The position numbers and the translations under genes were made by a program. Under the pieces are notes generated by a model, which worked only from the letters and a program-made list of their open reading frames with translations, searched no databases and was not told where the DNA came from. Positions 554 through 25,761 of a stretch of 64,000 bases of DNA are shown here, piece after piece; position 1 is the first letter of the stretch, and the number at the start of each line of letters is the position of its first letter. Source of the DNA: Caldithrix abyssi DSM 13497 (GTDB taxonomy: Bacteria > Calditrichota > Calditrichia > Calditrichales > Calditrichaceae); the NCBI RefSeq assembly GCF_001886815.1, contig NZ_CP018099.1, positions 1,734,501 to 1,798,500 of the forward strand. The letters are read 5' to 3'.

Positions 554-2473
554 ATGGATGCAACTGTTCGGAAACAGTCTGAAAATAATGCACTTTCTGG
601 TTATAATTATTTAATCCAATTTTTAGAGATGGCGCCGGAAGGGGCGTTACTCATTGATCTGGAAGCTTTGACAATCCTGCATGTCAACCAGAATTTTTTA
701 AACCTATCGGGCTATCAAAAAGAGGATATCGAAGCCAAACCTTTTTTAAACTTTTTTATTATTTCGGATTTAAAAGAATTTCTTGATCGTATCAATTCAT
801 TAAATCAAGAAAAGGCCGACGTGAGCTTTGACCTGGTGCTTAAAGGCGTAGAAAACCGCCTGGCTCCCGTTAAGCTGCATTTAAAGAAAAATGAATTAGC
901 AGAAATTACCGAAAAATCTGTGGCGATTTGCTTTCTTAAAGATGTTACCGAGCTGAGACGACTGGAAGTTGAGCGAAATATGCTTTCGCATGCCTTACGC
1001 CAGGTGAATGAGGGCCTGGGCTTGTTTGATCTTGAGGGCAAAATCATTTTTGTAAATGAGTCGTTTTTAGACACATTCGGCTACAGACGAAATGAAGTGA
1101 TCGGACGCAATATCGAATTCTTTTTCTCGCCTTTCATTGGCTATGAATTCCAACTGAATATTCTACCGGCTTCCATTAATGGCGGGTGGAACGGCGAGCT
1201 GCGGGCCAAACGAAAAGACGGCAAGGAGATCACCGTTTTTCTGTCCACTTCAACCGTTAAAGATGATGCTGGGCAGCCGGTGGTGGTGGTGGCTGTGTTA
1301 AGCGATATTACGCTGCGCAAACAACTGGAAGCGCAACTGCGTCAGTCGCAAAAGATGGAGGCCATCGGCCAGTTAGCCGGAGGCGTGGCTCATGATTTCA
1401 ATAATCTGTTAACGGTCATAGAAGGCTACATCGATCTGTTAAAGAACAAACTGGATGAAAACGCTTCGATCAACAGTTATATCAATCAAATGAAAAAAGC
1501 CACCGAACGGGCGGTTTCTTTAACGCGCCAGCTGCTGACCTTTAGTCGCAGACAGGTGGTTCAGCCGAAAATTCTTGATATCAACAAGACCATCCAGGAA
1601 CTCTCCAAAATGCTCAATCGTCTGATTGGCGAGCATATCGAATTAATAACCAATCTTGATCCCAAAATCTGGCGTATTAAGATCGATCCCAGCCAAATAG
1701 AACAGGTCATCCTGAATCTGGTGGTTAACGCGCGGGACGCCATGCCGGAGGGCGGTGAACTGATCATTGAAACCGAGCAGATTAAACTGGACCGCAGCTA
1801 CAACCGGTTCCATCCCGACGTCCGCCCGGGCGATTATGTGGTTATCAACGTTTCGGACACCGGCATGGGCATGTCCGAAGAGGTGCAGCAAAGGATTTTC
1901 GAGCCCTTTTTTACGACAAAAGAAAAAGGGAAGGGCACCGGTTTAGGGCTGGCCACCGTCTATGGCATTGTTAAGCAGCACAACGGACATATTTCCGTAT
2001 ACAGCGAGATCGGCAAGGGCACCACCTTTAAAATCTATTTTCCGGCGATTAAAGCCAGGACCTCCAGCGAAGTAGAAGAGAGCGAAAGAAAGCATCTAAA
2101 AGGGCGGGGAGAACAAATTCTGGTGGTGGAAGATGAGTATCTGGTGCGTGAGTTGATTTGCGATACCCTGCGTAATTTAGGCTACAATGTGCTGGAGGCG
2201 GCTAATGGCGAACAGGCCCTGAGGGTTTACCAGGAAAACGCCGACACCATCGAATTAATCTTAACCGATCTGGTAATGCCGGTAATGAACGGCCGTAAAC
2301 TGGCCCGGATACTTAAAAGAGAGAATCCCGACCTCAAAATTTTGTTCATGACGGGATATGACGATAATGCGATCAGCAAGCAAGGTATGGTGACAGAAGA
2401 TATCGATTATATTTCAAAACCATTCTCGCCTAACAAATTGGCCAAAAAATTAGAAGAAATTTTCGAATATTAA
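554..2473 (+). CDS. Hybrid sensor histidine kinase (PAS-PAS-HisKA-HATPase-REC)
   Basis: This 639-residue protein lacks membrane segments and is probably cytoplasmic. Two PAS domains (about residues 20-135 and 145-265) precede a HisKA domain whose H-box is AGGVAHDFNN, with the phospho-accepting His at residue 280. The HATPase_c domain follows (N-box NLVVNARDAMPEGG, G1 SDTGMGMS, G2 [11 protein letters not shown]). A C-terminal receiver (about 520-639) has VVEDE and the phospho-Asp D572 in LTDLVMP. Such hybrids autophosphorylate and pass the phosphate to their own receiver and then often to an HPt protein. The gene starts 28 nt after flgM, so it may share its transcript. Its stop overlaps the stop of the opposing kinase gene by 4 nt. 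Ligand and partner cannot be read from the sequence. Confidence 0.93.
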   Translation: MDATVRKQSENNALSGYNYLIQFLEMAPEGALLIDLEALTILHVNQNFLNLSGYQKEDIEAKPFLNFFIISDLKEFLDRINSLNQEKADVSFDLVLKGVENRLAPVKLHLKKNELAEITEKSVAICFLKDVTELRRLEVERNMLSHALRQVNEGLGLFDLEGKIIFVNESFLDTFGYRRNEVIGRNIEFFFSPFIGYEFQLNILPASINGGWNGELRAKRKDGKEITVFLSTSTVKDDAGQPVVVVAVLSDITLRKQLEAQLRQSQKMEAIGQLAGGVAHDFNNLLTVIEGYIDLLKNKLDENASINSYINQMKKATERAVSLTRQLLTFSRRQVVQPKILDINKTIQELSKMLNRLIGEHIELITNLDPKIWRIKIDPSQIEQVILNLVVNARDAMPEGGELIIETEQIKLDRSYNRFHPDVRPGDYVVINVSDTGMGMSEEVQQRIFEPFFTTKEKGKGTGLGLATVYGIVKQHNGHISVYSEIGKGTTFKIYFPAIKARTSSEVEESERKHLKGRGEQILVVEDEYLVRELICDTLRNLGYNVLEAANGEQALRVYQENADTIELILTDLVMPVMNGRKLARILKRENPDLKILFMTGYDDNAISKQGMVTEDIDYISKPFSPNKLAKKLEEIFEY

Positions 2474-5400
2474 TCCGAATCGAGAATTTCTCTTACTTTT
2501 CTTGCCAGTTGATGCCCAACGAACGGTTTTAACAAATAATCCTTTTCGTTTTCCAGTTTGGGGCTAAAGGCGCTCATTAGTAAAAATTTGATGTCCGGTT
2601 TGATTTGCTGACAAAGCATCCGCAGTTCAATGCCATCCATGTCAGGCATTACCACATCGGAGATAACCAGATCAATCAAATCTTTATATTTGGTTAAAAT
2701 ATCCACCGCCTGAACGCCGCTGCCTGATATTAAAACTTTATAGCCATACGATTCCAGCGTGTCTTTTGACGTGGTCAAAATATCAATCTGATCGTCCACC
2801 AATAAGATGGTTTCATTGCCTCCTCTTACCATTTCCGTTTCCTGCGAATCCTCGGTCGGCGAAACAGCCGAGTGCGGCTTGACGGCCGGAAAATAGATTC
2901 TGAAAACAGTACCCTCGCCAATTTCGCTGTCAAACTGAATATATCCGCCGTGGTGGCGCACCAGCCCGTACACGGTGGCCAGCCCCAGTCCGGTTCCCTC
3001 TCCCACTTCTTTGGTGGTAAAAAACGGTTCGAAGATGTGCGCCTTTATCTCATCGCTCATACCAATGCCGGAATCGGCGACAATAAGCTGAACGTAATTG
3101 CCCGGCGGGATGTCCGCTTCACTCTCTTTAAGCGTAACATTATGCGTTTGTATGGTTAATTCACCGCCATCCGGCATGGCATCGCGGGCGTTGATGCACA
3201 GGTTGGTCAAAATTTGATCCATGGCGCTGGGATCGCCGTGAATTAAATGAAGGTCGTCTTCTAAAGTAACGATTAAATGGATATCTTCTCCCAGATATCT
3301 TTGTAAAATCTTTTTGTTGGAAAGGACGACTTTGTTCAGGTTGATGTTTTGCAGCGAAATTTTTTGCTGCCGGCTAAACATTAAAAGTTTTCGAACCAGA
3401 TCGGCCGCGTTTTCCGCCTTATTGATAATGAGTTTAATATTTTCACGAACCGGACTGTCGCTTTTAATTTTGCGTAAAGATAATTCTGCAAGCCCAATGA
3501 TCCCGGCAAGAACGTTGTTAAAATCATGGGCAATCCCTCCGGCTAACTGGCCGATGGCTTCTAATTTTTCGATGCGCCGCATTCTCGCTTCCAACTTTTT
3601 CTTTTCTGACAGGTCTGAAATTACGCCCATCACAAAAGGACCGTCCAACATTTCCACAGGCGTCAGTTGAATTTCAATGGGAAACTCAATTCCGTCTTTG
3701 CGCATGCCCGTTAATTCCACGGATTTAGTCGCCCGGATATCTTCGAGATGTCTGAAACGGCTCTGATTAAGAATGTTATCCTTGCCTCTTAAGCTAAAAG
3801 GCAGCAGCGTATCGGCAGGTTTTAAAAGGAGCTCGTCGCGGGAGTAACCGAACAGTTGTTCTGTTTTTGAATTGACCAGGTTAATGCGCCCGTGAATGTC
3901 AATTAAAATGATTGCCTGAAATGTGGACTCTAAGAGTATGCGAAAGCGGTTCTCGCTTTTTTGCAAATCGGTTTCATATTTTTTGCGTTCCGAAATATCT
4001 CTTAAAAGGCACAATATCTGATTTTCATGGCTTTTACTCAAGCGCGCTTCGAAATGTTTTAATTTTCCTTTTACCTGATGCTGAAATTCAAATGTTTGAA
4101 TTTCGCCCGTTCGATTGGTCAGACGCAGCATGTTGTAAAATCGTTGAGCAATGGGCTGGGCAACCAACTCAAAAAATGATTTACCAAGGATCAAATGGGG
4201 TTCCACGTTAAAAAACTCGCCGTCTTTAACTTCCAGTATCGTCCCGTCAATGGTTAATAGCATCAATTGATCGGGCAGGGCGTCAAGGATGGCGCGTAGT
4301 TTTTTTTCGTTGGAGCGCAACAGTTTTTCCGCTTTTTTAAGCGGCGTAATATCATTAATATAGACGAACACTTCTTTTACCGTATTGTGTTCAATAATCG
4401 GAATGGCGTCCATTACAATCCACTTGCTTCTTCGGGGCAAATAACGGATTTTCAGAATATGGTTGGTTAAGGGTAGGCCTTTTTCCAGGGCGACGAATGG
4501 GGGAAATTGTTCGATTTTTACGCGTTTGCCCGACGTGTTGTAAATTTTCAGGTCTGCAAAATCCTTTAATGAAAAGCGGCGTTTATCATCAGGAAAATGA
4601 AATATTTTACGCGCCGCTTTGTTGATCATGGTTATTTTTTTATCGGGCGTTAAATTAAACACACCCTGAGTTAAGTTTTTATACAGCATCCTGAACTTTT
4701 TTTCGGAAGCCGTTAATGCATCCAAAGTCTTTTTTTGCGCAGTGATCTCTTTGATCATGATGTAGCAGGTTTGACGGCCGTGAAAGGTAAGAGAATGGCT
4801 TAATACCTCCACTTCTATTAAATTGCCGTCCTTCCGTTGATGAGTTAGTTCTTTGGTTTGTTGAATCAGAGCTTCGTTGTAGTCCTGCGGAATTAAACAT
4901 AAAATTTCATCCGGCTGCACAAATAATTGATCAATTTTCATAGAGATGAATTCATCAAAGGTGTAGCCATAAAGCAGAGAAGCCGAATGGTTGGCCGTAA
5001 TAATTTTACGGCTCTTGATATCAAAGATGAGCATGGGCATGGGGTTGTTTTCAAACATCAGCCGGAAAGACGCCTCGCTTTGCCTTGTGGTTCTGGAGCG
5101 GATTTCAATCAACTCTTCCAGGCGCTGCTGATAGCGAATATTTTCGCTTTGCAGCGCTTTATTTTCATTCATTAATTGCCAGATTTTCAAAGCCTTTTCC
5201 ACAGTTTTTTCAAATCCATCGGCGCATTCGGCGTCAACAACGAAATCACAAAGCGACGCCCGGCCTGGCTGTGGCGCCTTTCCATTGGCGATGAGGATGA
5301 TTTGGGTTTCGGGCCTTTGTTTTTTGATCTGCTCTAATACATTCGTCTTTGCAGGATACGATTCAGTATCGATGATAATCAAAGCAAAAGAGTCTTTCTG

Positions 5401-5523
5401 CAGCTCATCAAGGGCGGTGAAGGGGGGCGTAACCTCAACGAATTTTCTTTCTTCTTTTTGTAAAATATTTTTAAGTTGAAGAAATCCGTTCACTCGGGAA
5501 TTGATGAATAAAATGTCGTTCAT
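2470..5523 (-). CDS. Hybrid sensor histidine kinase with atypical N-terminal receiver and four PAS domains
   Basis: This is the only substantial minus-strand gene in the window: 1,017 residues. The first ~125 residues look like a receiver fold, with IIIDTES at the phospho-Asp strand, but the acidic pair near the N-terminus and the C-terminal Lys-Pro are not apparent. A short coiled coil follows, then four PAS-like modules (starting near residues 150, 270, 395 and 520). A HisKA domain ([10 protein letters not shown], His666), a HATPase with N, G1 (DSGIGMS) and G2 ([11 protein letters not shown]) boxes, and a normal C-terminal receiver ([17 protein letters not shown]) complete it. No membrane segment is evident. 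Its catalytic half closely resembles that of the adjacent + strand kinase, so the two may be paralogues. It is transcribed toward that gene from the 5.5-6.1 kb intergenic region. Confidence 0.92.
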
Positions 5524-6072: not shown

Positions 6073-6552
6073 ATGGCGCAAACAATATTGCTTATCGATA
6101 ATGACGAGACAACCATTCAATTGTTCATGCAGGTGGCCGCGGCTTTGAACATCGAGTATTTAATCATGCAAAATTGGGCAAGACCCCAAAACCTACCGGG
6201 TAGAAAGACCATTAAAGCGGTGTTTGTAAATGTGGAAATGAGTTCTGTGGATCTGCAGCAGATCATAAAAGAATTTATTCAAAACGATGAAGAGGAAAAA
6301 GCGCCTGTTTTTATTATGTATTCCAAATCATTCAGCAAGCAGTACCAGGTCGCAAAGAGATTCCCGCACAACGGGGAATTAAAAAAGCCGTTCAATGCGG
6401 AAGAATTATTCGAAGTACTAAACGCATGTATGGATCTGGAAGCGCTGATCGAATATCCGGAAGAAAAATACAGAGAAAAGATAAGAAATTTCCGCGCGTA
6501 TTTAACAGCCACCAATGTTTTGATTAACAAGCTGGAGGCGTATTTTGAATAA
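6073..6552 (+). CDS. Pseudo-receiver domain protein
   Basis: This 159-residue protein has the shape of a CheY-like receiver over residues 1-120: ILLIDNDE at the first strand, a Ser at the fourth (IMYSKS) and a KKPF loop at the fifth. The third strand reads AVFVNVEMS, with Asn where the phospho-Asp should be, so it is unlikely to be phosphorylated conventionally. A helical tail of about 35 residues follows. It is the first gene of the chemotaxis cluster. Its stop overlaps the next gene, a FapA-like protein, which suggests translational coupling and a joint function. Pseudo-receivers generally act through protein-protein contacts. The role here is unknown. Confidence 0.75.
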   Translation: MAQTILLIDNDETTIQLFMQVAAALNIEYLIMQNWARPQNLPGRKTIKAVFVNVEMSSVDLQQIIKEFIQNDEEEKAPVFIMYSKSFSKQYQVAKRFPHNGELKKPFNAEELFEVLNACMDLEALIEYPEEKYREKIRNFRAYLTATNVLINKLEAYFE

Positions 6553-8068
6553 CAAAAAGCAAATAGATGAAGGACTCCGAATTATCTCATTAATGGACGG
6601 TAAACTAATACTGGCAGAAAAGTTAAGAGAAACAATCACGAGCGGAGAATTACTGGCCGTCTTGAAGCGCGCTGGTATTACAGAAGGCATTCTGCCGGGG
6701 TGTTTTCCCCTGCTGGGCCGAACGGATATCGTTCAGATTCCGGTGGCCCGCGCTTTTTATCGGGATGAACCTCCGGTCTTTAATGTCGCTTTTGGATTGG
6801 AAGCCTTTGAAAGCCAAATTTTAGAAGACATTCTGGCCGGAAGACCCTTCGATACCTTTGAAGAAAAATTCTCGGTAAAAAGAAATACCGTCTTGCTTTC
6901 AGTTCAAAAGCCGTTTACCAAAATATTAAAATACCCGGATGGGCATATTGAAAAAAAATGTAATCTGAACTTAAAGAACTACGACATCTTTTGTGGCAAA
7001 AACACCAGCGTCTATCAAAATTCAATCGTGGCTTTGATAGATGGAAGCGCCCACCGCACCAAAGACGGGAAAGTTCATGTGTATCCGGTGTTGACGGTAA
7101 AAGGCATGGGCGAAATACACGGCAAAGTGGACGAAGAGATTGCCTTCAAAGTTACCGGCGACATCCACAGCAATTCTTATCTGGAATCTCCTTCTAATGT
7201 GTTTGTATTGGGCGCCATCCGTTCGTCCTTTGTTAAAGCAGCAGGAAATATTCAGGCGCTGGAGGGCATTGACAACACCAAAGAAATAGAATCAAGCCGA
7301 ATTATAAGCAAGGGCAAGGTGATTACGGTTTATATCAGAAACTATCGCGTCCATGCCAAAGACAGAGTGTTGGTAAGCGAGGGGATTCATAATTCACTGG
7401 TCATTGCGCACGACGAAGTGTGGGCCAATTTTATTGAAAGTTCAGAAATCCGCTGTCAAAAGGGGATCATTACCAATCATATTCGTGGAAAATCACGAAT
7501 ATTTTTGGGCCCCTCTTATATCAAAGAAGACGATGTGGATTCATTCCGTCATCAAATTCAATTAAGCGAAAAAAAATTAAAAAGCCAGGAGTTCGAGATT
7601 AAAGAGATAAAAGATCGACTGGAAAAGGAAAAGCAAACTTTGATGGGCTATTTTATGCGGTTAAAAGATGCCGGAAAAACCAGAGTGATGCTCGATAGTT
7701 CCATCATTCGTCTTTTTAACTCTTTAAAACTTACTTTTGAACAATACGAAGAAAGTGTGAAAAAATACGAAAGGTTATTCGCGGAATACCTGGCATATAA
7801 ATCCTATCTCATTAACTGTCAACGGGCGATAAAAAATACCGCGCCTCCTTTTGTAAAGGTAATGGGGCGCATTGAACCGGGCGTGATTATTGCAACGCCG
7901 GCTCATGTGGTCAAGGTCTCTAAGCCCCTGGATCATGTATTAATTTTTATCGATCCGATTACCGGCCGGTTACGGTTTACCAATGATTTTAAGATGCTCT
8001 CAAACATATCTGAAAAAAGTTTTAATAAAATGTCCAATTATGTGCAGCAAACGGTTGAAAATGCATGA
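6545..8068 (+). CDS. FapA/DUF342-family protein (first copy)
   Basis: This 507-residue protein belongs to the FapA (flagellar assembly protein A, DUF342) type. It has an N-terminal domain with a GILPGC segment, a central Gly/Val-rich beta-solenoid (about residues 175-320: VKGMGEIHGKV, VTGDIHSNS, VLGAIRSSF, AAGNIQALEG, ISKGKVITV), a long charged coiled coil (about 330-420) and a C-terminal beta segment. Relatives form repetitive beta-helix polymers. FapA has been linked to flagellation in Vibrio, though its mechanism is unclear. The TTG start at 6545 is supported by GGAGG ending 6 nt upstream and by overlap with the previous gene. The stop overlaps the cheA start. A second copy lies at 18385. 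Confidence 0.8.
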   Translation: MNNKKQIDEGLRIISLMDGKLILAEKLRETITSGELLAVLKRAGITEGILPGCFPLLGRTDIVQIPVARAFYRDEPPVFNVAFGLEAFESQILEDILAGRPFDTFEEKFSVKRNTVLLSVQKPFTKILKYPDGHIEKKCNLNLKNYDIFCGKNTSVYQNSIVALIDGSAHRTKDGKVHVYPVLTVKGMGEIHGKVDEEIAFKVTGDIHSNSYLESPSNVFVLGAIRSSFVKAAGNIQALEGIDNTKEIESSRIISKGKVITVYIRNYRVHAKDRVLVSEGIHNSLVIAHDEVWANFIESSEIRCQKGIITNHIRGKSRIFLGPSYIKEDDVDSFRHQIQLSEKKLKSQEFEIKEIKDRLEKEKQTLMGYFMRLKDAGKTRVMLDSSIIRLFNSLKLTFEQYEESVKKYERLFAEYLAYKSYLINCQRAIKNTAPPFVKVMGRIEPGVIIATPAHVVKVSKPLDHVLIFIDPITGRLRFTNDFKMLSNISEKSFNKMSNYVQQTVENA

Positions 8069-10272
8069 AAAAATTTGGGAGCCCAGAGATGCCATTGTCC
8101 CCGGAAGATAAAGAAATTATCATCGATTTTGTGAACGAAGGCCAGCAAGGACTTGAACGGGCAGAAGGCAATTTATTGAAGATTGAAGAAGCCGTGGCGG
8201 GCAGGGGGGAAATTGTCGGGGAATTTATTGATGAGCTTTTCAGAGTTTTTCATTCGATTAAAGGAAGCGCCGGGTTTTTAAAGTTCTCGCTCATTACTCG
8301 GCTAACGCATCACGCAGAATCCTTGCTTGATCACATCCGTAAACATCATACGCTGGTCAATAAACAACATACGGATATCCTGCTTGAGGTTTGTGATGAG
8401 TTAAGTCGTCTGTTTGACTATGTAAAACAACACTTTTCCGAGAGCGGATTTAGCGGTAATTTTGAAAATTTGATCGCGCGTCTTGAAACGTTGACCTCGG
8501 CTCTTAAGACAAGCGGCGATTTAACGGGAACTCCCCGGGAAGAACATCCAGCGGAGGCAAAACGCTCTTCTTTTAATTTAAAGGAATTTGAGATTACGGA
8601 TGATTTGATCGTCCAGTTTGTGGCCGAAAGTACGGAACTGCTCGATGCGCTGGAACAGGATCTATTAAAGTTGGAAAAAGAACCGGCTAAGCAGGAGTTT
8701 TTAGAGAGTGCATTCCGAGCGCTGCATAGTTTGAAAGGCAATGCCGGCTATTTAAATTATCATGATATTGCCGAAGTTACGCATCAACTGGAAACCATTT
8801 TTGAAAGCGCCCGCAGCCATGAACTGCACCTTCAGCCCAAACAGGTTTCTCTGATCCTTAAAATCGTTGATTTTGTGCGGGCGGCTGTTCTTAATCTGGC
8901 AGAAGGGCAATCGCCCGCCATTCCCGGTAAATTGGGTTTGATCGATTTGATGAAAGAGATGATTCCCCAGCCTCAGCCGGCTGCACAAAGCGAACAAAAT
9001 GACACAAAGCGTATTGCTCCTGATGCGCAAAAGAAAGACGAACATAAGCTTAATCAGGCTCTAACCCAGCTCGAGGCGCCGCAGACCAGCGCTAAAGCAA
9101 ACGAGATGGTGCGCGTCGATGTGCAGAAGCTGGATCGTTTGATGGACCTGGTGGGCGAGATCGTCATTGCCGAATCCATGATTACGCACCATCCCGCGTT
9201 GAATCTTTCCGAATCGGAAGAGCTTGAGCAGGCCGTTGCCTACCTGCAAAGAAACATCCGCGAACTGCAAGATATTGCCACCTCCATGCGCATGATTCCT
9301 TTGAACGGCCTCTTTGGCAAGATGCGCCGTCTGGTGCGAGATATTTCTTTAAAAAAAGAAAAAAAAGTGGAGCTCGAAATCGTCGGCGGCCATACGGAGG
9401 TGGATCGTTCCATTATTGAGCATCTTTCCGATCCGCTGGTACACATCCTCAGAAATGCCATCGATCATGGAATTGAACCGGAAGCAGAACGCGTTGCACA
9501 GGGTAAATCGGCTGCCGGCCATCTTGTGTTGCGCGCCGACCGCGTGGGTGGAGAGGTCTGGATAGAGGTAAAAGACGACGGTCGCGGGCTGGATAAAGAA
9601 AAGATATTAAAACAGGCCAGAAAACGAGGGCTGGTCAACGAAAACAAACAGAGCCTGACAGAAGAAGAGATTTATAACCTAATTTTTATGCCAGGCTTTT
9701 CCACCGCTGAAAAAATCACCAATATTTCCGGCCGCGGCGTGGGCATGGATGTTGTTAAAAAAAATGTGGAAAAAATTCGGGGACACATCTCCATTGCCTC
9801 TCAATCGGGAAGGGGGACGACCATCCGCTTGAAAATTCCGCTTACCACGGCAATTATTGACGCCATGTTGTTGCGCGTAAGCGATACCATCTACGCCATT
9901 CCCATTCTGGATATTCGCGAATCGCTACGCGTGCACAAACAGCAGGTAATGGACCTGATCGATGGGCAGGAAATCATTAAAGTGCGCGATGAAATCATCC
10001 CTGTGATTCGCCTGGAACAATTACATAACCTTCAGGCAGGCGTGCGGGCAATCGATGAAGGCATTGTAGTGGTGACACAAACCCAGCAGCAGACCGTCGG
10101 CTTTTGGGTGGAAGAGATCATCGGGCAGCAACAGGTGGTCATCAAGCCTGTGCCAGACTACCTGGGAAGATTAGAAGGCGTTTCTGGCTGCGCCATTTTA
10201 GGCGATGGCAATATCTGTTTTATCCTCGATTTAGCCATTCTGATTAAGCTGGCGGAGACGATTAAAATTTAA
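8065..10272 (+). CDS. cheA: Chemotaxis histidine kinase CheA with two HPt domains
   Basis: This 735-residue CheA autophosphorylates in receptor arrays and passes phosphate to CheY and CheB. It has two N-terminal HPt (P1) domains instead of one, with His63 (FHSIKGSAGF) and His221 (LHSLKGNAGY). A linker, the P3 dimerisation domain (about 345-420, VRVDVQKLDRLMDLVGE), the P4 ATPase (HILRNAIDHGIEP N-box, DDGRGLD, ISGRGVGMDVV) and a P5 CheW-like domain follow. No clear P2 CheY-binding domain is seen between HPt2 and P3. The ATG overlaps the end of the FapA-like gene by 4 nt and cheW follows after 15 nt. Two HPt sites could separate two phosphate streams, which is interesting beside two CheY genes. 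Confidence 0.97.
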   Translation: MKKFGSPEMPLSPEDKEIIIDFVNEGQQGLERAEGNLLKIEEAVAGRGEIVGEFIDELFRVFHSIKGSAGFLKFSLITRLTHHAESLLDHIRKHHTLVNKQHTDILLEVCDELSRLFDYVKQHFSESGFSGNFENLIARLETLTSALKTSGDLTGTPREEHPAEAKRSSFNLKEFEITDDLIVQFVAESTELLDALEQDLLKLEKEPAKQEFLESAFRALHSLKGNAGYLNYHDIAEVTHQLETIFESARSHELHLQPKQVSLILKIVDFVRAAVLNLAEGQSPAIPGKLGLIDLMKEMIPQPQPAAQSEQNDTKRIAPDAQKKDEHKLNQALTQLEAPQTSAKANEMVRVDVQKLDRLMDLVGEIVIAESMITHHPALNLSESEELEQAVAYLQRNIRELQDIATSMRMIPLNGLFGKMRRLVRDISLKKEKKVELEIVGGHTEVDRSIIEHLSDPLVHILRNAIDHGIEPEAERVAQGKSAAGHLVLRADRVGGEVWIEVKDDGRGLDKEKILKQARKRGLVNENKQSLTEEEIYNLIFMPGFSTAEKITNISGRGVGMDVVKKNVEKIRGHISIASQSGRGTTIRLKIPLTTAIIDAMLLRVSDTIYAIPILDIRESLRVHKQQVMDLIDGQEIIKVRDEIIPVIRLEQLHNLQAGVRAIDEGIVVVTQTQQQTVGFWVEEIIGQQQVVIKPVPDYLGRLEGVSGCAILGDGNICFILDLAILIKLAETIKI

Positions 10273-10842: not shown

Positions 10843-11373
10843 GTGAAAAAATGGAGTTTAATCATTATCGGTTTGTTGCTGTTCATACAATATTCTTTTG
10901 GCGGTAAGGTAACCTGGCTACAGTATTTTTACGCCATCAAACAAATTTTCCCCGATGAAAAGCAGGTCTCTATTCTCATCCCTAAACAAGTCATGGAGGC
11001 CGAGCAAAAAGACATCAGACGCGCGGCGGCCATAACCAAGTTTACCGTTAAACTCTTTCCTGTGGAAGATACGCGCGACATCGGAACGAAAGTGAAAATG
11101 GTAAAAAAGAAAAGCATCCTGATTATTTATGACGATACGATGTTTAGGAATAAATCGAGCATGCTTTATATCCTGTCAAGGGCCAATGAACGGGAGCTTA
11201 TGGTTGTAACGAGCTCGGAAGAATACGGGGAGAAGGGCGCTTTTTTGACCCTGTGCAAAAAGGATGACAAAAAGCTGAAAATTGTGGTCAATTTAAAATT
11301 TAAGCCGGAGCTCGCGGCAAAATTTACGCCTGAGTTTCAGCAAAAACTGGGCATTACTCAGGTTTTACAATGA
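10843..11373 (+). CDS. Small exported protein of unknown function
   Basis: This 176-residue protein begins with a signal peptide (KK followed by a hydrophobic stretch and likely cleavage after YSFGG), so the mature part should be periplasmic. The rest alternates strands and helices (VSILIP, SILIIYDDT, ELMVVTSSEEYGEKGAF), faintly recalling one lobe of ABC-type binding proteins or the YfiR/DUF4154 family, whose members also end in a region like IVVNLKFKPELAAKF. I cannot assign a family with confidence. The GTG start follows a strong AGGAGGTG. It lies between cheW and the chemoreceptor gene, 24 nt from the latter. A periplasmic ligand-binding partner of that receptor is a reasonable inference. 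Confidence 0.72.
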   Translation: MKKWSLIIIGLLLFIQYSFGGKVTWLQYFYAIKQIFPDEKQVSILIPKQVMEAEQKDIRRAAAITKFTVKLFPVEDTRDIGTKVKMVKKKSILIIYDDTMFRNKSSMLYILSRANERELMVVTSSEEYGEKGAFLTLCKKDDKKLKIVVNLKFKPELAAKFTPEFQQKLGITQVLQ

Positions 11374-16899: not shown

Positions 16900-17003
16900 A
16901 TTTTCCCGCAGGAGGAAAAAATTTCTTCTGTTATCAACGAATGGAGCAGAGGAGGCACGTAAAAACAAGGCCTTTCAATCTGATTTTCCTGATTGCAGAT
17001 AAG

Positions 17004-17019
17004 TGGCACATTTTTTGAA
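17004..17019 (+). promoter_or_regulatory. Weak sigma-54-like element upstream of second cheY
   Basis: TGGCAC, 5 nt, TTGAA in the 151-nt gap before the ATG at 17051. The -24 half is perfect. The -12 half has TTGAA in place of TTGCA. Spacing is right for a sigma-54 promoter. It could make cheY-cheZ a separate transcription unit, but a single mismatch at the critical GC lowers confidence. Confidence 0.4.
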
Positions 17020-17050
17020 TGAAAGGAAAATAAAAACTCGAGGATTGGTT

Positions 17051-17431
17051 ATGTTTGAGGACAAACGGATTCTATTTGTTGAAGATTCTCCGACTATGCG
17101 CAGAATCATCGCCAATTCTTTAAAGCAACTGGGCGTAAAAGAATTCGAAGAGGCCCAGAACGGCCTGGACGCTCTGGAAAAGTTGCACGAGGCGCCATTC
17201 GATCTGTTAGTGACCGACTGGAATATGCCGGAGATGAATGGCAAAGAATTAGTGGAGGAAGTTCGCAAACTGCCGCGGTTTAAAGAACTGCCTATCATGA
17301 TGATTACCACGCGGGGGATGGAAGAAGATGTGTTGACGGCCATACAGGTAGGCGTTAACGCCTATATCATCAAGCCTTTCACGCCGGAAATTTTGCGAAA
17401 AAAAATTATGGAGCTGTTTAATAAGTCCTGA
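17051..17431 (+). CDS. cheY: Chemotaxis response regulator CheY (second)
   Basis: This 126-residue receiver is a canonical CheY: LFVEDSPTMRR with the acidic pair, phospho-Asp D56 (LVTDWNMPEMNG), MMITTRG with the switch Thr, and YIIKPFTPE with the conserved Lys. CheY-P binds FliM/FliN at the motor. A frame open from a GTG at 17003 would add 16 residues, but the ATG at 17051 has a GAGGA just upstream and starts the fold in the usual place. It is followed by a CheZ gene 12 nt later. It is the better match to a motor-binding CheY of the two receivers here. Confidence 0.96.
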   Translation: MFEDKRILFVEDSPTMRRIIANSLKQLGVKEFEEAQNGLDALEKLHEAPFDLLVTDWNMPEMNGKELVEEVRKLPRFKELPIMMITTRGMEEDVLTAIQVGVNAYIIKPFTPEILRKKIMELFNKS

Positions 17432-17443
17432 TTGGAGGAGGAG

Positions 17444-18070
17444 ATGGGAGGAGCTAAAGGATTGGACCAGCTAATGTCAAGGATCGAACAATTAAAAAAA
17501 TCTTTGAAAACGGATGATGAGGTTGTTACTGTTGTCAGCGATGTGTTGATATTTATCGAGGACCTGATTCCCTTAATGTTGGAAGGCAACGCCTTCATGC
17601 GCGATACGGCCAATAAAGTGCCTTCGGCAGCGGACAATTTAACCAGAATAAACCAGACAACAGAGATGGCAACCAAAGAAGTCCTGGATCGCCTCGAACG
17701 CATTATGGAACAATTAGAGTCACTTAAGAAAGATATCATTAAAGAAAAAGACACACTGCAAAATGTTAAAACCGTCGATGATATTCAGGAAGAAATCCAC
17801 CAGATATTTTATGCTTTCCAGTTTCAGGATATTACCAGCCAGCAGCTGGAATATGTAAAGCGCATTTTAAAAGCCATCAACGAAAAATTTATGGAGCTGT
17901 TTAATTCATCGATACGCCTTAAGGGAAATACGATCTTTGGTAAAAACATCATAGAGGCCATCGAAAACGAAACAAAAAAGAAACTAAGCGATGATGTTTT
18001 AACCGATACGAAAGATTTTGTCAGACAAAATGAAATTACACAGGAATCGATCGATAAATATTTCAAATGA
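17444..18070 (+). CDS. cheZ: CheZ-type CheY-P phosphatase
   Basis: This 208-residue, almost wholly helical protein has the CheZ signature FQDITSQQ, with Asp129 and Gln133 at the four-residue spacing of the catalytic Asp and Gln of E. coli CheZ. A long hairpin of helices surrounds it and a C-terminal short helix ends in IDKYFK, comparable in position to the CheY-binding tail of CheZ. A TTG at 17432 is in frame, but the GGAGGAGGAG run that follows it reads as the Shine-Dalgarno for the ATG at 17444. Translation is probably coupled with the preceding cheY. Confidence 0.87.
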   Translation: MGGAKGLDQLMSRIEQLKKSLKTDDEVVTVVSDVLIFIEDLIPLMLEGNAFMRDTANKVPSAADNLTRINQTTEMATKEVLDRLERIMEQLESLKKDIIKEKDTLQNVKTVDDIQEEIHQIFYAFQFQDITSQQLEYVKRILKAINEKFMELFNSSIRLKGNTIFGKNIIEAIENETKKKLSDDVLTDTKDFVRQNEITQESIDKYFK

Positions 18071-18082
18071 GAGTGGGAAAAC

Positions 18083-18379
18083 ATGAAGAATGAAGGGCTT
18101 TTTAACCGCGATCAAAGTCTGATATTTAAAAATATTGAACGCGTTAAACCTGCAAAGGCAAAAGTGATCAAACGCGATCAGGTGGTGGTTGGTCAAAAAC
18201 GGAAAATTGAACATGCCATGCAGGTTTCGGAAACGCATACCGAGGGTAAAATCACGCCCGTGCTAAACGGCGAAGAATTGATAGGCATTATCTATGAATG
18301 CAGCTGCGGTAAAGTTGCACAGATTTTGTTCGATTTTGAGGAAACGACCGAAATCAAAAAACATGCAGCAACAGGTTAA
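18083..18379 (+). CDS. Small conserved-looking protein with CxCG motif
   Basis: This 98-residue protein of unknown function is basic at its N-terminus. The C-terminal third reads GIIYECSCGKVAQILFDF, a CxCG knuckle followed by a beta strand. Two cysteines alone would not form a zinc site unless it dimerises. It lies 12 nt after cheZ and 5 nt before the second FapA-like gene, so it is probably co-translated with that gene. No signal peptide or membrane segment is visible. I do not recognise the family. Confidence 0.7.
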   Translation: MKNEGLFNRDQSLIFKNIERVKPAKAKVIKRDQVVVGQKRKIEHAMQVSETHTEGKITPVLNGEELIGIIYECSCGKVAQILFDFEETTEIKKHAATG

Positions 18380-18384
18380 TTATT

Positions 18385-19824
18385 GTGGAAAAAATTAGAA
18401 TCACGATCAGCAAAGATGAACTTAAAGCCTTTTTAACCATCCCCATCAAGGGCGCACTGTTTCCTTCGCGAGAAGAAATTTTATTCGGATTACGAACGGC
18501 CGGCATTAAACAAGGCGTAAAGCTCGAAACGCTGGATGAAATTGCCCGGCGCAAGGAACCGGTGTACGAAGCGTTAATTGCCGAGGGAAAACCGCCTGTT
18601 AAAGGCAAAGACGCACAGCTGGTGTGGGAAATTCCTCTTAAAGGCCATGGGGACGCAACAAAAGCGGAAAAAGACGAAACAGCGCGCATCGATTTTAAAA
18701 AGGCTTTACACTTTGTTCCGGTGCAAAAACACCAGGTTCTGGCCCGTAAAATACCGGCAGAAAGCGGACAAAATGGCCTGACGGTTACGGGGAAAGAAAT
18801 TCCCTCCTGGGGCAGAGACATAGCCCTGCCAGCCGGCAAGAACACTGAGATTTCGGAAGACGGATTGGAATTGCGCGCCGCCATTACGGGGTCCGCTTAT
18901 TTACAAAATGGTAAGGTGCATGTCGATAAAGTGTTGCACATCAAAGGCGATGTGAACTACGGCACCGGCAATATTAAGTTTACCGGCCCTGTTATCATCG
19001 AGGGCGACGTTCGTTCCGGATTTAAAGTAGAGGCGCGGGACTCCATCGTTATTAACGGCAATGTGGAAGCCGCCCATATTTATTCCCAGCAGGGTGATGT
19101 TACCGTTAAATACGGGGTAGTGGGGAAAAAACGGGCAAAAATATTAGCGGCCGGCAATTTTACCTGCGGTTTTGTGCAGGATGCCACCGTGGGCGTGCGC
19201 GGCGACGTCATGGTTTCGCACTATCTTATTAATTGCAATGTTTCGGCTGGCGGCAGAGTGATCGTTAAAGGAAAGGAAGGACAGATCCGCGGAGGAAGCA
19301 TAACTTCGGAAAAAGGCATTCACGCCGTAACGGTCGGTTCGGATCGCAATATTTACACAGAACTGAAGATTTTTTCTCTGGCGCAAAACAGTTCGCAAAA
19401 AAAATTGTGGGAATTAAGCCGCATGCGTACCGACATGGCTCTGCGCCTTTCCACCCTGGAAAAACGACTGAAATTTCTGGAAATCATTAAAAAACAGGTT
19501 AAAACCATTTCCGAAGAAAAAATAGCGGAAATGGAATTTATTGCAAACGAAATTAAACGACTCAAGGCCCGCCTCATGCAGCTGGACGACGAGGAGATCG
19601 TACTGCAAAAGGAGGCCGCCAAAGAACGGATGTTAAAGGAGGTTGTTGTTGAGGGCAGTCTCTTTCCCAATGTCCATATCGATATCAATGGCCTGGGTTT
19701 TCATTCGGACGAAACATTGAGGAGCGTTAAAATATACCGTTTTAAAGATGAATTAATCGTCGAATCGTTAAAAGGGACGGAAGACCTGAATTACGATATT
19801 TTTGTTCCCGGAAGTAAAACTTAA
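18385..19824 (+). CDS. FapA/DUF342-family protein (second copy)
   Basis: This 479-residue protein has the FapA (DUF342) layout: an N-terminal domain (about 1-140) including HFVPVQKHQVLARKIPAE and GLTVTGKEIP, a beta-solenoid with repeated short Gly/Asp turns (about 185-315: IKGDVNYGTGNI, IEGDVRSGFKVEA, INGNVEAAHIYS, VRGDVMVSHYL), a coiled coil (about 335-415) and a C-terminal beta module. The GTG start at 18385 is the first plausible codon and no ATG is nearby. It retains the N-terminal domain better than the copy at 6545, so the two are diverged paralogues. It probably works in polar or flagellar assembly, or scaffolds a signalling complex. The biochemical role is unknown. Confidence 0.85.
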   Translation: MEKIRITISKDELKAFLTIPIKGALFPSREEILFGLRTAGIKQGVKLETLDEIARRKEPVYEALIAEGKPPVKGKDAQLVWEIPLKGHGDATKAEKDETARIDFKKALHFVPVQKHQVLARKIPAESGQNGLTVTGKEIPSWGRDIALPAGKNTEISEDGLELRAAITGSAYLQNGKVHVDKVLHIKGDVNYGTGNIKFTGPVIIEGDVRSGFKVEARDSIVINGNVEAAHIYSQQGDVTVKYGVVGKKRAKILAAGNFTCGFVQDATVGVRGDVMVSHYLINCNVSAGGRVIVKGKEGQIRGGSITSEKGIHAVTVGSDRNIYTELKIFSLAQNSSQKKLWELSRMRTDMALRLSTLEKRLKFLEIIKKQVKTISEEKIAEMEFIANEIKRLKARLMQLDDEEIVLQKEAAKERMLKEVVVEGSLFPNVHIDINGLGFHSDETLRSVKIYRFKDELIVESLKGTEDLNYDIFVPGSKT

Positions 19825-21547: not shown

Positions 21548-22927
21548 ATGGACGTTCAGAAGATTCTTGTCGTTGACGACGATGAACATTTGCGCATGGT
21601 GTTACAAGAAACGCTGGAATCGGGAGGATATAAGGTAAAAATAGCATCTTCTGGCAACGAAGCGCTTTCTATTTTAAAAGAAGAGGCGTTCGATCTTTTA
21701 ATCACCGATTTGATGATGCCGGGTATTAAGGGCGTGGAACTGGTAGGCAGGGCCAAGGAAATTTACCCCAACATTGGAGCCATGGTTATTACCGCTTATG
21801 GAACGATTGATCGGGCGGTGGAATCTATGCAGAAGGGGGCGTTCGATTTTATTACCAAACCCTTTTCAATCAGTCAAATCGAATCGCGCGTTAAACGTTT
21901 TTTTGAATTTCAAGCTCTGCAAAAAGAAAACGTTGTTTTAAAGAAGAAACTGGAAAGATTTCGGCTGACTCAGAAGATTGTGGGGGAAAGTCCGGTTATT
22001 AAAGAGGTGATGGATCACATCGCAATTGTGGCCAATAGCGATGCGACGGTATTCATCCGCGGCGAGAGCGGAACTGGTAAAGAACTGGTGGCGCAAGCCA
22101 TTCATGACCGTTCGGACAGGGCGGATAAACCGTTCCGCAAAATCAACTGTGCGGCTGTGCCGGAAACGCTGTTCGAAAGCACGCTGTTTGGCCACGAAAA
22201 AGGCGCATTTAGCGGCGCTTACCGTCAGCAAAAGGGCATTTTCGAAGAATGCCACGAAGGCACCATTCTGCTGGATGAAATCAGCGAAATCCCCCATTCG
22301 CTGCAGGCTAAACTGCTGCGCGTGCTTCAGGAAATGAAAATTACGCGCGTAGGCAGCACGGAAGAAATACCCGTTGACGTACGGATCATTGCCACCACCA
22401 ATCGCAATATTGATGAATTGATCAATTCCGGTAAGTTCAGAGAAGATCTGTTCTTCCGCCTGAATGTCTTTCCCATAACTCTGCCTCCGCTACGGGATAG
22501 GAAGGAAGACATCCCACTGATTATTGACCACTTTCTTTCGACATTAAAAGACAAATATCATTTTACCGAAAAAAAGATCTCTCCGTCGTTAATGAAACAA
22601 ATTATGGAGTACGACTGGCCCGGCAATGTTCGCCAATTACAACACATGCTGGAAAGAGCGATTTTGTTTTCCGGAAAAGAAGTGACCATTACTGAGAAGC
22701 ATTTTAAATTCGAAGAAGAAGGCCGTAGAAACAGCGCAAAAGGGGGAAACGGTTCGCTGGAAGTTATGCCCCTGGCAGAAATGGAAAGAAAGTTAATCTT
22801 CGCCGCGCTGAAAAAAACGAACAATCATCGCACCCGCGCGGCCGAGCTGTTAGGCATTACGGTCAGAACATTGAGAAATAAATTACATGAGTACGAAGAA
22901 CAGGGATTAACGGACGAGGAATTATGA
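21548..22927 (+). CDS. NtrC-family sigma-54 response regulator (flagellar master regulator candidate)
   Basis: This 459-residue regulator has an N-terminal receiver with D54 (LITDLMMPG), a central AAA+ domain (Walker A GESGTGKE, the sigma-54 contact loop GAFSGA at 219-224, Walker B TILLDEISEI, R-finger region FREDLFFRLNVFPI) and a C-terminal Fis-type helix-turn-helix (NNHRTRAAELLGITVRTLRNKL). The loop has Ser instead of the usual Thr in GAFTGA, a conservative change. These proteins hydrolyse ATP to open sigma-54 promoters. Matching -24/-12 elements before flgB, fliP and flgF make it the candidate class II flagellar activator, like FlgR or FleR. Its stop overlaps the next gene by 4 nt. Confidence 0.95.
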   Translation: MDVQKILVVDDDEHLRMVLQETLESGGYKVKIASSGNEALSILKEEAFDLLITDLMMPGIKGVELVGRAKEIYPNIGAMVITAYGTIDRAVESMQKGAFDFITKPFSISQIESRVKRFFEFQALQKENVVLKKKLERFRLTQKIVGESPVIKEVMDHIAIVANSDATVFIRGESGTGKELVAQAIHDRSDRADKPFRKINCAAVPETLFESTLFGHEKGAFSGAYRQQKGIFEECHEGTILLDEISEIPHSLQAKLLRVLQEMKITRVGSTEEIPVDVRIIATTNRNIDELINSGKFREDLFFRLNVFPITLPPLRDRKEDIPLIIDHFLSTLKDKYHFTEKKISPSLMKQIMEYDWPGNVRQLQHMLERAILFSGKEVTITEKHFKFEEEGRRNSAKGGNGSLEVMPLAEMERKLIFAALKKTNNHRTRAAELLGITVRTLRNKLHEYEEQGLTDEEL

Positions 22928-24270
22928 ATCGTATAGAAACCATACCATCCGGTGAATTTTATGTAACGCGCAAAACCGACGTAAGCGCTCAGGCCTTTTT
23001 AGGCAGTTGCGTGGGGCTTGCCATTCTTGACTTCCAGTCGGAAGTGGGCGGTTTGTATCATATTTTGCTGCCGCAGCCCTCGGGAACTTTCAGTGTGCCC
23101 GAGCCCAAAAAGTATGCGGTCACCGGCCTACCGCTCTTTTTGGCCGAGCTGGAAAAATTGGGCGCAAAACGCGAAAATATGAAAGCCTTTCTGGTCGGTG
23201 GCGCATTAATGGGCGATGTTTCGGATCTGGACCTGGCCTTCGATTTTGGAGGAAAGACTACCGAGATCGTGGAAAGTTTTTTGACAGAAAATAAAATTGA
23301 GTTAGTGCAGGAAGAAACCGGCGGTTATTTCGGCTACAAAATGACAGCAGATTTCTGGAACTTTAAGGTGGATATTAGTTTGACCGGCTCCAACTTTATG
23401 CAGCGCCGCAAACACGACGTCATTCCTCAGTTAGAAAGCATCGATTCGGTCATCCAGAAAATTAAGCCCATTCCCCAGATCGCATTAAAAGTAATCCGCA
23501 TGATTCACTCCTCCGATGTCTCCATGGCAACCATTGGCAAGGAGATTCGGCAGGACCAGGTATTGACGGCTAAAATCATCAATTTGTGCAACTCGGCTTA
23601 TTTCAATCCAAAAAAACGGATTGAGACCATCGATGAAGCGGTGGTGATGCTGGGCGAGCGCCGCATTCTGTTATTGACCTTTTCGATCTTTACGGAATAT
23701 TATTACAAAGACGCCGACAATGGCTATTCTTTGTGTAAAGGAGGTTTGTTTCAGCATGCGCTGGGCGTGGCCAAAGCAGCCGAAGAAATCGCGCGGGAAA
23801 CGCGCAAAGTTGAGCCCGAATTGGGCTATACCGCCGGTCTTTTGCACGACATCGGCAAAATTGTCCTCGATCAATGGGTGGATCATTTCTATCCCATGTT
23901 TTACCGCAATCTTTACAGCGATAAAAATCTGACGCTGGTCGATGTGGAGCGCAAGGTGTTTAATATCGACCATACCCAGGCCGGAACCAAACTGGCCAAA
24001 CTGTGGGAACTACCGGAAAGTCTGGCTTACACCATAGAATTTCACCATCAGGTTGAACGGTATGAAAAATACGAAAACCTGTTGCACGTTATTAACCTGG
24101 CCAACTTGCTGGTCAGCTATTTTAAATCCGGCCTGATTTTAAACAAGTTTGACGAAAAAAACCTGATGGCTTCCGTGCAATATCTGAATCTGGATTCTGA
24201 GCATTTACTAAAGATTTTAGAGCGCATTCCGTTCAACAATTTACATTCATTTTCAGAACAGCTCCGGTGA
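22924..24270 (+). CDS. CheD-HDOD fusion protein
   Basis: This 448-residue protein joins a CheD-like domain (about 1-155) to an HDOD domain (about 170-445). The CheD part keeps Cys29 (FLGSCVGLAI) and His46 (GGLYHILLP), 17 residues apart as in the separate CheD, and the VGGALMGD loop. The Thr of the triad is replaced by Gln23. The HDOD part has IPQIALKVIRMI, the QDQVLTAKIINLCNSAYF helix typical of HDOD, and LLHDIGK with His308-Asp309. HDOD proteins lack most metal ligands and usually regulate. The ATG overlaps the sigma-54 activator stop, so the two are co-translated. A link between receptor modification and flagellar gene control is an inference. It is the last gene before the repeat array. 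Confidence 0.88.
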   Translation: MNRIETIPSGEFYVTRKTDVSAQAFLGSCVGLAILDFQSEVGGLYHILLPQPSGTFSVPEPKKYAVTGLPLFLAELEKLGAKRENMKAFLVGGALMGDVSDLDLAFDFGGKTTEIVESFLTENKIELVQEETGGYFGYKMTADFWNFKVDISLTGSNFMQRRKHDVIPQLESIDSVIQKIKPIPQIALKVIRMIHSSDVSMATIGKEIRQDQVLTAKIINLCNSAYFNPKKRIETIDEAVVMLGERRILLLTFSIFTEYYYKDADNGYSLCKGGLFQHALGVAKAAEEIARETRKVEPELGYTAGLLHDIGKIVLDQWVDHFYPMFYRNLYSDKNLTLVDVERKVFNIDHTQAGTKLAKLWELPESLAYTIEFHHQVERYEKYENLLHVINLANLLVSYFKSGLILNKFDEKNLMASVQYLNLDSEHLLKILERIPFNNLHSFSEQLR

Positions 24271-24309: not shown

Positions 24310-25442
24310 GCACTGATGGTCATTCCGGCTGAGCGCAGCGAGAGGTGGAATCCCCTGCATTATGAAAGGGATTCCCGCTTACGCGGGAATGACGTGGAAG
24401 GGGGGAAGGGATTCCCGCTTGCGCGGGAATGACTGTCCGGGTGTCATTCCGGCCGAGCGCAGCGAGAGCCGGAATCCCTGCATTAAGAAAAGGATTCCCG
24501 CTTGCGCGGGAATGACGTGGAAGGGTGGGAGGGATTCCCGCTTTCGCGGGAATGACTGCCTGGTGTCATTCCGGCCGAGCGCAGCGGGAGGTGGAATCCC
24601 CTGCATTATGAAAGGGATTCCTGCTTGCGCAGGAATGACGTGGAAGGGGGGAAGGGATTCCCGCTTTCGCGGGAATGACTGTCCGAGTGTCATTCCGGCC
24701 GAGCGCAGCGAGAGCCGGAATCCCTGGATTATGAAAAGGATTCCCGCTTGCGCGGGAATGACGTGGAAGGGTGGGAGGGATTCCCGCTTTCGCGGGAATG
24801 ACTGTCCGGGTGTCATTCCGGCCGAGCGTAGCGAGAGCCGGAATCCCCTGCATTTTGAAAGGGATTCCTGCTTGCGCGGGAATGACGTGGAAGGGTGGGA
24901 GGGATTCCCGCTTTCGCGGGAATGACTGCCCGGGTGTCATTCCGGACGAGCGTAGCGAGAGCCGGAATCCCCTGCATTATGAAAGGGATTCCTGCTTGCG
25001 CGGGAATGACGTGGAAGAGTGAGAGGGATTCCCGCTTTCGCGGGAATGACTGTCCGGGTGTCATTCCGGCCGAGTGCAGCGAGAGCCGGAATCCCTGGAT
25101 TATGAAAAGGATTCCCGCTTGCGCGGGAATGACGTGGAAGGGTGGAAGGGATTCCCGCTTTCGCGGGAATGACTGTCCGGGTGTCATTCCGGCCGAGCGC
25201 AGCGAGAGCCGGAATCCCTGGATTATGAAAAGGATTCCCGCTTGCGCGGGAATGACATGGAAGGGTGGAAGGGATTCCCGCTTGCGCGGGAATGACTGTC
25301 CGGGTGTCATTCCGGCCGAGCGCAGCGAGAGCCGGAATCCCCTGCATTTTGAAAGGGATTCCTGCTTGCGCGGGAATGACGTGGAAGGGTGAGAGGGATT
25401 CCCGCTTTCGCGGGAATGACGTGGAGGGGGGAAGGGATTCCT
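24310..25442. repeat. Tandem array of nine ~123.5-bp palindrome-rich units
   Basis: Copies of the box GTCATTCCGG begin at 24319, 24443, 24565, 24689, 24812, 24936, 25060, 25183 and 25306, a period of 122-124 bp. Each unit holds three inverted repeats with shared ends: two short hairpins (ATTCCCGC, TTGC or TTTC, GCGGGAAT) and one longer one (CATTCCGGC...GCCGGAATCC around a GAGCGCAGCGAGA core). The short ones match the ATTCCC-N8-GGGAAT form of the dRS3 repeats of Neisseria and similar dispersed palindromes. The array fills the gap between the chemotaxis cluster and flgB. Open frames on both strands here are artefacts of the repeat. The last unit is cut off near 25442. Confidence 0.95.
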
Positions 25443-25761
25443 GCTTTCTCAAGATGTTTCTTGCTGAAGTGGTAAGAAAACACCTTTTGTTTTTCCTTCT
25501 TCTCTCTCGAAAAACAAATATTCACCTGCCAGAAATCAATGCAAATAACCTCACATAGTCGGGGGGAAATTATTAATAGTTCTAAAGGAAATATTTTCCC
25601 GCTGTGGTAGAAGCCAAATAATCAACCGCTAAAAACACCAATTTTTAACGCTTAACTAAGTATTGGTAAATTAATGATTAAAAGTGTTTTTCTATTCTTC
25701 TTTTCGCCGGTCGTTAAAATTGGCACAGCGCTTGTATTAGAAATGAGCGGAGGTGATAAAC
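25443..25761. other. flgB upstream region
   Basis: About 320 bp of AT-rich DNA between the tandem array and flgB. It holds no gene. It carries the sigma-54-type element at 25721-25736. About 55-85 bp upstream of that element is an imperfect inverted repeat (ACCAAT 25637-25642 / ATTGGT 25662-25667), a possible activator site, though weakly supported. The flgB Shine-Dalgarno GGAGGTG follows the promoter. Confidence 0.5.
25721..25736 (+). promoter_or_regulatory. Sigma-54 (-24/-12) promoter of the flgB operon
   Basis: TGGCAC, 5 nt, TTGTA. This matches the sigma-54 consensus TGGCAC-N5-TTGCA with one mismatch and exact spacing. Transcription would start about 10-12 nt downstream, just before the flgB Shine-Dalgarno. 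The same arrangement occurs before fliP and flgF, and an NtrC-type activator is encoded 3 kb upstream. Confidence 0.75.

Follow-up and report, generated by a model that had tools for sequence, protein, structure and literature searches.

Directly upstream of cheA in the genome of Caldithrix abyssi DSM 13497 lie two overlapping genes, one for a degenerate receiver protein, here called psREC, and one for a FapA-like protein, here called FapA2, which raises the question whether the two proteins belong to the chemosensory array encoded alongside them or serve another cellular structure. A first-pass annotation of this DNA had proposed the former and regarded the combination as an uncharacterised structural module of this chemotaxis system. 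The working and recruitment of FapA appear to be little studied outside Vibrio, and a 2025 review describes the switching of bacterial pseudo-receivers as a mystery (PMC12632262); a strict psREC-FapA2 pair is a small two-protein system in which both become testable. Titles and abstracts contained no report on this pair or on a DUF342 protein tied to CheA, most subscription journals lying outside the scope of that search. Here, we analyze the locus within a window of 64,000 nucleotides (contig NZ_CP018099.1, positions 1,734,501 to 1,798,500 of the forward strand), to whose numbering all coordinates refer, and follow it through a survey of 40 genomes of the phylum Calditrichota.

Organization of the locus

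The gene for psREC (6073 to 6552, forward strand, 159 amino acids) starts with ATG, upstream of which AAAGGAGG is found, and its 3' end contains the TGGAGG that precedes the TTG start of FapA2 (6545 to 8068, forward strand, 507 amino acids), the two genes overlapping by 8 nucleotides. FapA2 in turn shares an ATGA of 4 nucleotides with cheA (8065 to 10272, forward strand), which encodes two Hpt domains, and both overlaps are as the first-pass annotation had described them. The overlap of 8 nucleotides with a TTG start recurs in genome G003, and gene pieces suggest the same for G002; for FapA2 and cheA, an overlap can be stated with certainty for the window alone, the other genomes with cheA downstream mostly having a gap at this place. 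From psREC onward the order is psREC, FapA2, cheA, cheW, a gene for a YfiR-like protein, a receptor gene, cheR, cheB, cheD, a receiver gene and cheX, followed by cheY (17003 to 17431, forward strand), a cheZ-like gene (17432 to 18070, forward strand), a gene for a CxCG protein of 98 amino acids with a conserved C-x-C-G tail (18083 to 18379, forward strand) and, directly 3' of the latter, FapA1 (18385 to 19824, forward strand), before genes for a GAF protein, a receiver, an NtrC-type regulator and a CheD-HDOD fusion lead to the flagellar genes from flgB; names in this order that lack a Pfam match were read from the translations. Divergent from psREC, on the reverse strand, a hybrid PAS histidine kinase is encoded (2470 to 5523). 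The second FapA-like gene and the CxCG protein further along, both listed in the first pass, are thus present.

Fold and residue losses of psREC

The assignment of psREC is based on its open reading frame, Pfam, a predicted model and an alignment. At 20.8 bits, the weak Pfam receiver match of the window protein falls short of the cut-off (30.2 bits); of 14 members, five give a match at E<=0.01. In the AF2 model (pLDDT 84.3, pTM 0.69) a receiver is predicted with an added C-terminal helix at residues 129-158, and in a Foldseek search with this model receivers rank first among the 164 PDB chains returned at E<=0.001, so that model and structural search together indicate the receiver fold although Pfam alone stays below its cut-off.

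The catalytic residues of receivers, namely the two acidic residues, the phospho-acceptor Asp, the Thr and the Lys (DD, D, T, K), were compared by aligning the 17 psRECs with four ordinary receivers encoded in the window, which served as controls and all retain the five residues; two of the psRECs had been completed from pieces at contig edges. The first acidic position is Asp or Glu in all 16 readable psRECs. The second acidic residue, which in CheY is a direct metal ligand, is retained in none of 16 (Arg in seven, Lys in six, Asn in three), and the position of the phospho-acceptor Asp57 is occupied by Asn in nine, Asp in five and Ala and Glu in one each (n = 16). At the Thr87 position Tyr is found in ten, Phe in three, Cys in two and Thr in one (n = 16), the switch aromatic equivalent to Tyr106 is absent in 17 of 17, and Lys109 is kept in 16 of 17. 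At the position of CheY D13, where a basic residue is a change that activates CheY, 13 of 16 psRECs carry a basic residue. The window psREC has Asn at the phospho-acceptor site, as the first-pass annotation had noticed, and Asn at the second acidic position as well. The Asn at the phospho-acceptor is therefore part of a wider decay in which loss of the second acidic residue is more consistent.

psREC is a pseudo-receiver as defined for the bacterial pseudo-receivers (PsRs), whose receiver fold lacks one or more of these five residues (PMC12632262), and the residue losses across the aligned proteins bear out the earlier view that the receiver is a true pseudo-receiver. It differs from the PsRs of that review in that the second acidic residue is replaced by Arg or Lys in 13 of 16 proteins, while Asn is given there as the common replacement. 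Since the metal site, a reliable phospho-acceptor and the switch residues are lost, psREC should not carry the usual signal, while a binding surface remains; the protein should thus act as a phosphorylation-independent binding module. A role as phosphate sink or as an ordinary CheY-like protein was considered and is ruled out by the same losses.

FapA2 is a divergent FapA paralogue

FapA2 was assigned from its open reading frame, Pfam, a predicted model and a tree. The protein matches the FapA family PF03961 with 64.5 bits (cut-off 31). At E<=0.01, all 16 of the 16 members match this family and none of them matches FapA_N (PF20250). FapA1 of the window is a canonical FapA with FapA_N and beta-solenoid (Pfam 204 bits), and a profile comparison aligns FapA2 with FapA1 along the full length, N-terminal part included (hhalign 99.4%). 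The predicted model of FapA2 consists of an N-terminal domain, a beta-solenoid at approximately residues 167-321, a two-helix coiled coil (329-376 and 385-430), a closing beta region and a tail of low confidence; the solenoid with coiled coil expected in the first pass is accordingly found in the prediction and would suit a structural role. The rows of VIA-align for FapA2 cover mainly the coiled coil (328-432). A sequence search of FapA2 against the PDB gave no convincing relative (best E 0.014), and a Foldseek search of its model against the PDB no match at E<=0.001.

In a tree of 48 FapA proteins, from which G030 (masked bases), G020 (gene split over two contigs) and L080 (a duplicate of L004) were left out, FapA2 forms a clade of its own with support of 100/99, and the copies of FapA1 fall together with the FapAs of other phyla. 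FapA2 as a canonical FapA is ruled out by this separate clade and the absent PF20250 match, and the protein is filed as a divergent paralogue. With the FapAs of Vibrio and Borrelia (PF03961) it shares a beta-solenoid interrupted by a coiled coil, and, as for FapA2, the context of the Borrelia protein is flagellar, its gene lying among flagellar genes (PMC11607428). FapA2 is unlike both in its separate clade, in the missing PF20250 match and in having a pseudo-receiver gene of its own. In G027 and G031 FapA2 is the sole FapA found.

Distribution in the Calditrichota

FapA2 is present in 17 of the 40 genomes and psREC in exactly the same 17, which represent nine genera and four families, so that the counts are not independent. 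The psREC profile matches in these genomes with at least 63.9 bits, contig-split pieces included, with nothing else above 45 bits, and the best score in the 23 genomes without FapA2 is 43.4 bits. psREC lies directly 5' of FapA2 in 17 of 17 genomes, in 15 as an open reading frame (one cut by a contig end) and in two as contig-edge pieces.

The pair is found together with flagellar genes throughout. FlhA is present in 17 of 17 FapA2 genomes when an 88-residue piece at a contig end of G031 is counted, where FlhA, FlhF, FlhG and FliA lie at the end of a contig. A clear FlhA is also present in nine of the 23 genomes that lack FapA2; a further two give weak paired matches (about 100 bits), and the last 12 give none. 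Expressed the other way round, FapA2 occurs in 17 of the 26 genomes with a clear FlhA and in none of the 14 without.

Outside the phylum, the FapA2 profile found nothing above 96.5 bits in 345 genomes, compared with at least 273 bits inside the phylum for gene pieces, and a scan of genome contigs, which reaches close relatives only, gave 7 loci, six labelled as Calditrichota-type MAGs and one as Caldisericaceae. FapA2 is therefore likely restricted to the phylum. Among the FapA loci of other phyla, 17 were inspected for a neighbouring receiver gene (L004 and L080 are one and the same gene); none has a psREC next to FapA, and one has ordinary receivers.

Relation to the chemotaxis genes

cheA is the commonest next gene after the pair and follows FapA2 in 11 of 17 genomes (the window, G001, G002, G003, G015-G020 and G030; in G020 across a contig break). 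The neighbourhood is conserved in that psREC and FapA2 stay together in all 17 genomes, so that the lack of conservation which the first pass had named as a refutation is not observed; adjacency of cheA does not reach beyond these 11. CheA of the window type is present in 13 of the 17 and CheD in 14; the missing CheA of G031, which has CheD and CheZ, could reflect incomplete assembly and was left out of the losses. In G009, G011 and G014, which are 72-99% complete and belong to two genera, psREC and FapA2 are followed after 278-350 bases by cheY, cheZ, the CxCG gene and FapA1, the block from cheA to cheX being absent, and neither window-type CheA nor CheD was found elsewhere in these genomes. 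The three retain a longer CheA, located beside its own receptors in G009 and G011, and some CheA-like protein occurs in 17 of 17 FapA2 genomes. G024 and G036, on the other hand, have window-type CheA without the pair. An obligate component of the CheA array would occur always and only with its cognate CheA, and the pair does not. In the remaining genomes a glycosidase gene follows FapA2 (G012), FapA2 is succeeded by the CxCG gene, an NtrC regulator gene and flgB (G027), or the contig ends 560 bases past FapA2 without a recognised gene (G031).

Window-type CheZ above 100 bits is found in 16 of 17 FapA2 genomes compared with 1 of 23 others, G027 giving no match. As the pair is kept without the cheA-cheX block and CheZ accompanies it in 16 of 17 genomes, it is independent of the adjacent array genes and travels with a cheY-cheZ-flagellar package. 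While the initial observation is confirmed, its interpretation is supported only in part: FapA2 would suit a structural role, but an assignment to this particular chemotaxis array is not supported by the counts for cheA, window-type CheA and CheD or by the pair in G009, G011 and G014. The constant partner of psREC and FapA2 is the flagellum.

A possible flagellar role of the pair

We consider psREC and FapA2 to be a dedicated two-protein flagellar module of the Calditrichota, a reading that we hold with about equal degrees of confidence and doubt and that builds on the observed co-occurrence and adjacency of the genes, the residue losses, the separate FapA2 clade and the constant flagellar genes. 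FapA2, with its beta-solenoid and coiled-coil arm, would be the structural part, to which psREC might bind, perhaps via its added C-terminal helix and the coiled coil of FapA2. No longer phosphorylated or switched in the usual way, psREC would serve as an adaptor that works without phosphorylation and recruits FapA2 to its place of action, most probably the flagellated pole or the base of the flagellum; once localised there, FapA2 may help to place or assemble the flagellum. In FrzS, CikA and FimX, polar localisation requires the pseudo-receiver (PMC1974792), and for Vibrio vulnificus the title of a reference in PMC8789113 states that the polar landmark HubP recruits FapA; titles cited there and in PMC6877527 place FapA with HubP at the flagellated pole, and Vibrio FapA binds dephosphorylated EIIA-Glc (PMC6877527). 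Given these polar roles, psREC as a localising adaptor of FapA2 appears to be the most economical reading.

A close likeness is to FrzS of Myxococcus xanthus, a motility protein which also combines a pseudo-receiver with a coiled coil and in which the face of the receiver, with no phosphorylation of Asp, determines localisation at the pole (PMC1974792). FrzS, however, is one polypeptide, has no beta-solenoid and is linked to type IV pili, whereas psREC and FapA2 are two proteins from two genes in a flagellar context. A more specific version, which we put forward tentatively and consider less than probable, describes the pair as a polar-targeting device split over two proteins: a receiver that is frozen because its metal site, its phospho-acceptor and its switch residue are lost would have become the subunit that targets a FapA scaffold, dedicated to this task and independent of phosphorylation. 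In that case the sole function of a signalling domain would be to direct a cytoskeleton-like flagellar protein to where it belongs. To our knowledge, no FapA with a partner gene of its own has been described before, and FapA2 with psREC would be the first.

In favor of a flagellar module, the pair survives the loss of the cheA-cheX block, lies near flgB in G027 and is accompanied by FlhA in every genome. Several observations count against it: nine flagellated genomes lack the pair, cheA is so often the next gene and a CheA-like protein is always present. The C. abyssi genome has a flagellar gene set, but electron microscopy showed no flagella (PMC5317091). Moreover, the pair tracks CheZ (16/17 vs 1/23) more tightly than it tracks flagella (17/26), which makes a role at the CheY-CheZ end equally plausible. 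Such a role could be that of a scaffold: by mimicry of CheY, psREC would dock on CheZ, FliM or a different partner of CheY, and FapA2 would collect CheY and CheZ at the motor or pole. The basic residue at the D13 position and the retention of cheY-cheZ beside the pair in genomes without the remaining block would fit; we nevertheless regard this as distinctly unlikely, since G027 has the pair without a CheZ match and the losses of the Tyr106 equivalent (17/17) and of Thr87 (15/16) mean that the usual output coupling of CheY is not kept in psREC.

That psREC and FapA2 hold or position the CheA-CheW-receptor array encoded alongside is a rather unlikely reading, although in 11 of 17 genomes cheA stands directly 3' of FapA2, with an overlap of the two genes in the window, and most FapA2 genomes have window-type CheA and CheD. 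The continuous psREC-FapA2-cheY-cheZ order of G009, G011 and G014 without either protein speaks against it, as do G024 and G036; the second, longer CheA with receptors in G009 and G011 means that some array persists there. Control of expression, in which psREC would be a decoy or partner of the divergent hybrid kinase and the pair would regulate flagellar genes, seems very improbable to us. Such a kinase is found at this place in 13 of the 15 genomes in which that side is covered, but it is absent there in G027 and G031, the residues for phosphotransfer are missing from psREC, and the FapA2 members gave no match to a DNA-binding domain in Pfam. Compared with these alternatives, the flagellar module is the reading that we prefer.

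Further observations in the window

A search of Rfam gave no match within the window. Scans with promoter consensus patterns gave 149 matches for sigma-54 (shuffle mean 174) and 3 for sigma-28 (shuffle mean 1.05), which does not usefully exceed shuffled sequence, with no site between 5524 and 6072. The C-x-C-G tail of the CxCG protein is conserved in nine of nine aligned proteins, and the protein has no Pfam match at E<=0.01. The YfiR/ABC-substrate-binding-like protein between cheW and the receptor (10843-11373, 176 amino acids) recurs among the che genes of several relatives. At 22924-24270 a CheD domain is fused to an HDOD/HD domain, separate from the stand-alone CheD at 15553, and between this gene and flgB a dense block of short repeats (24362-25452) contains long open reading frames for repetitive peptides on both strands.
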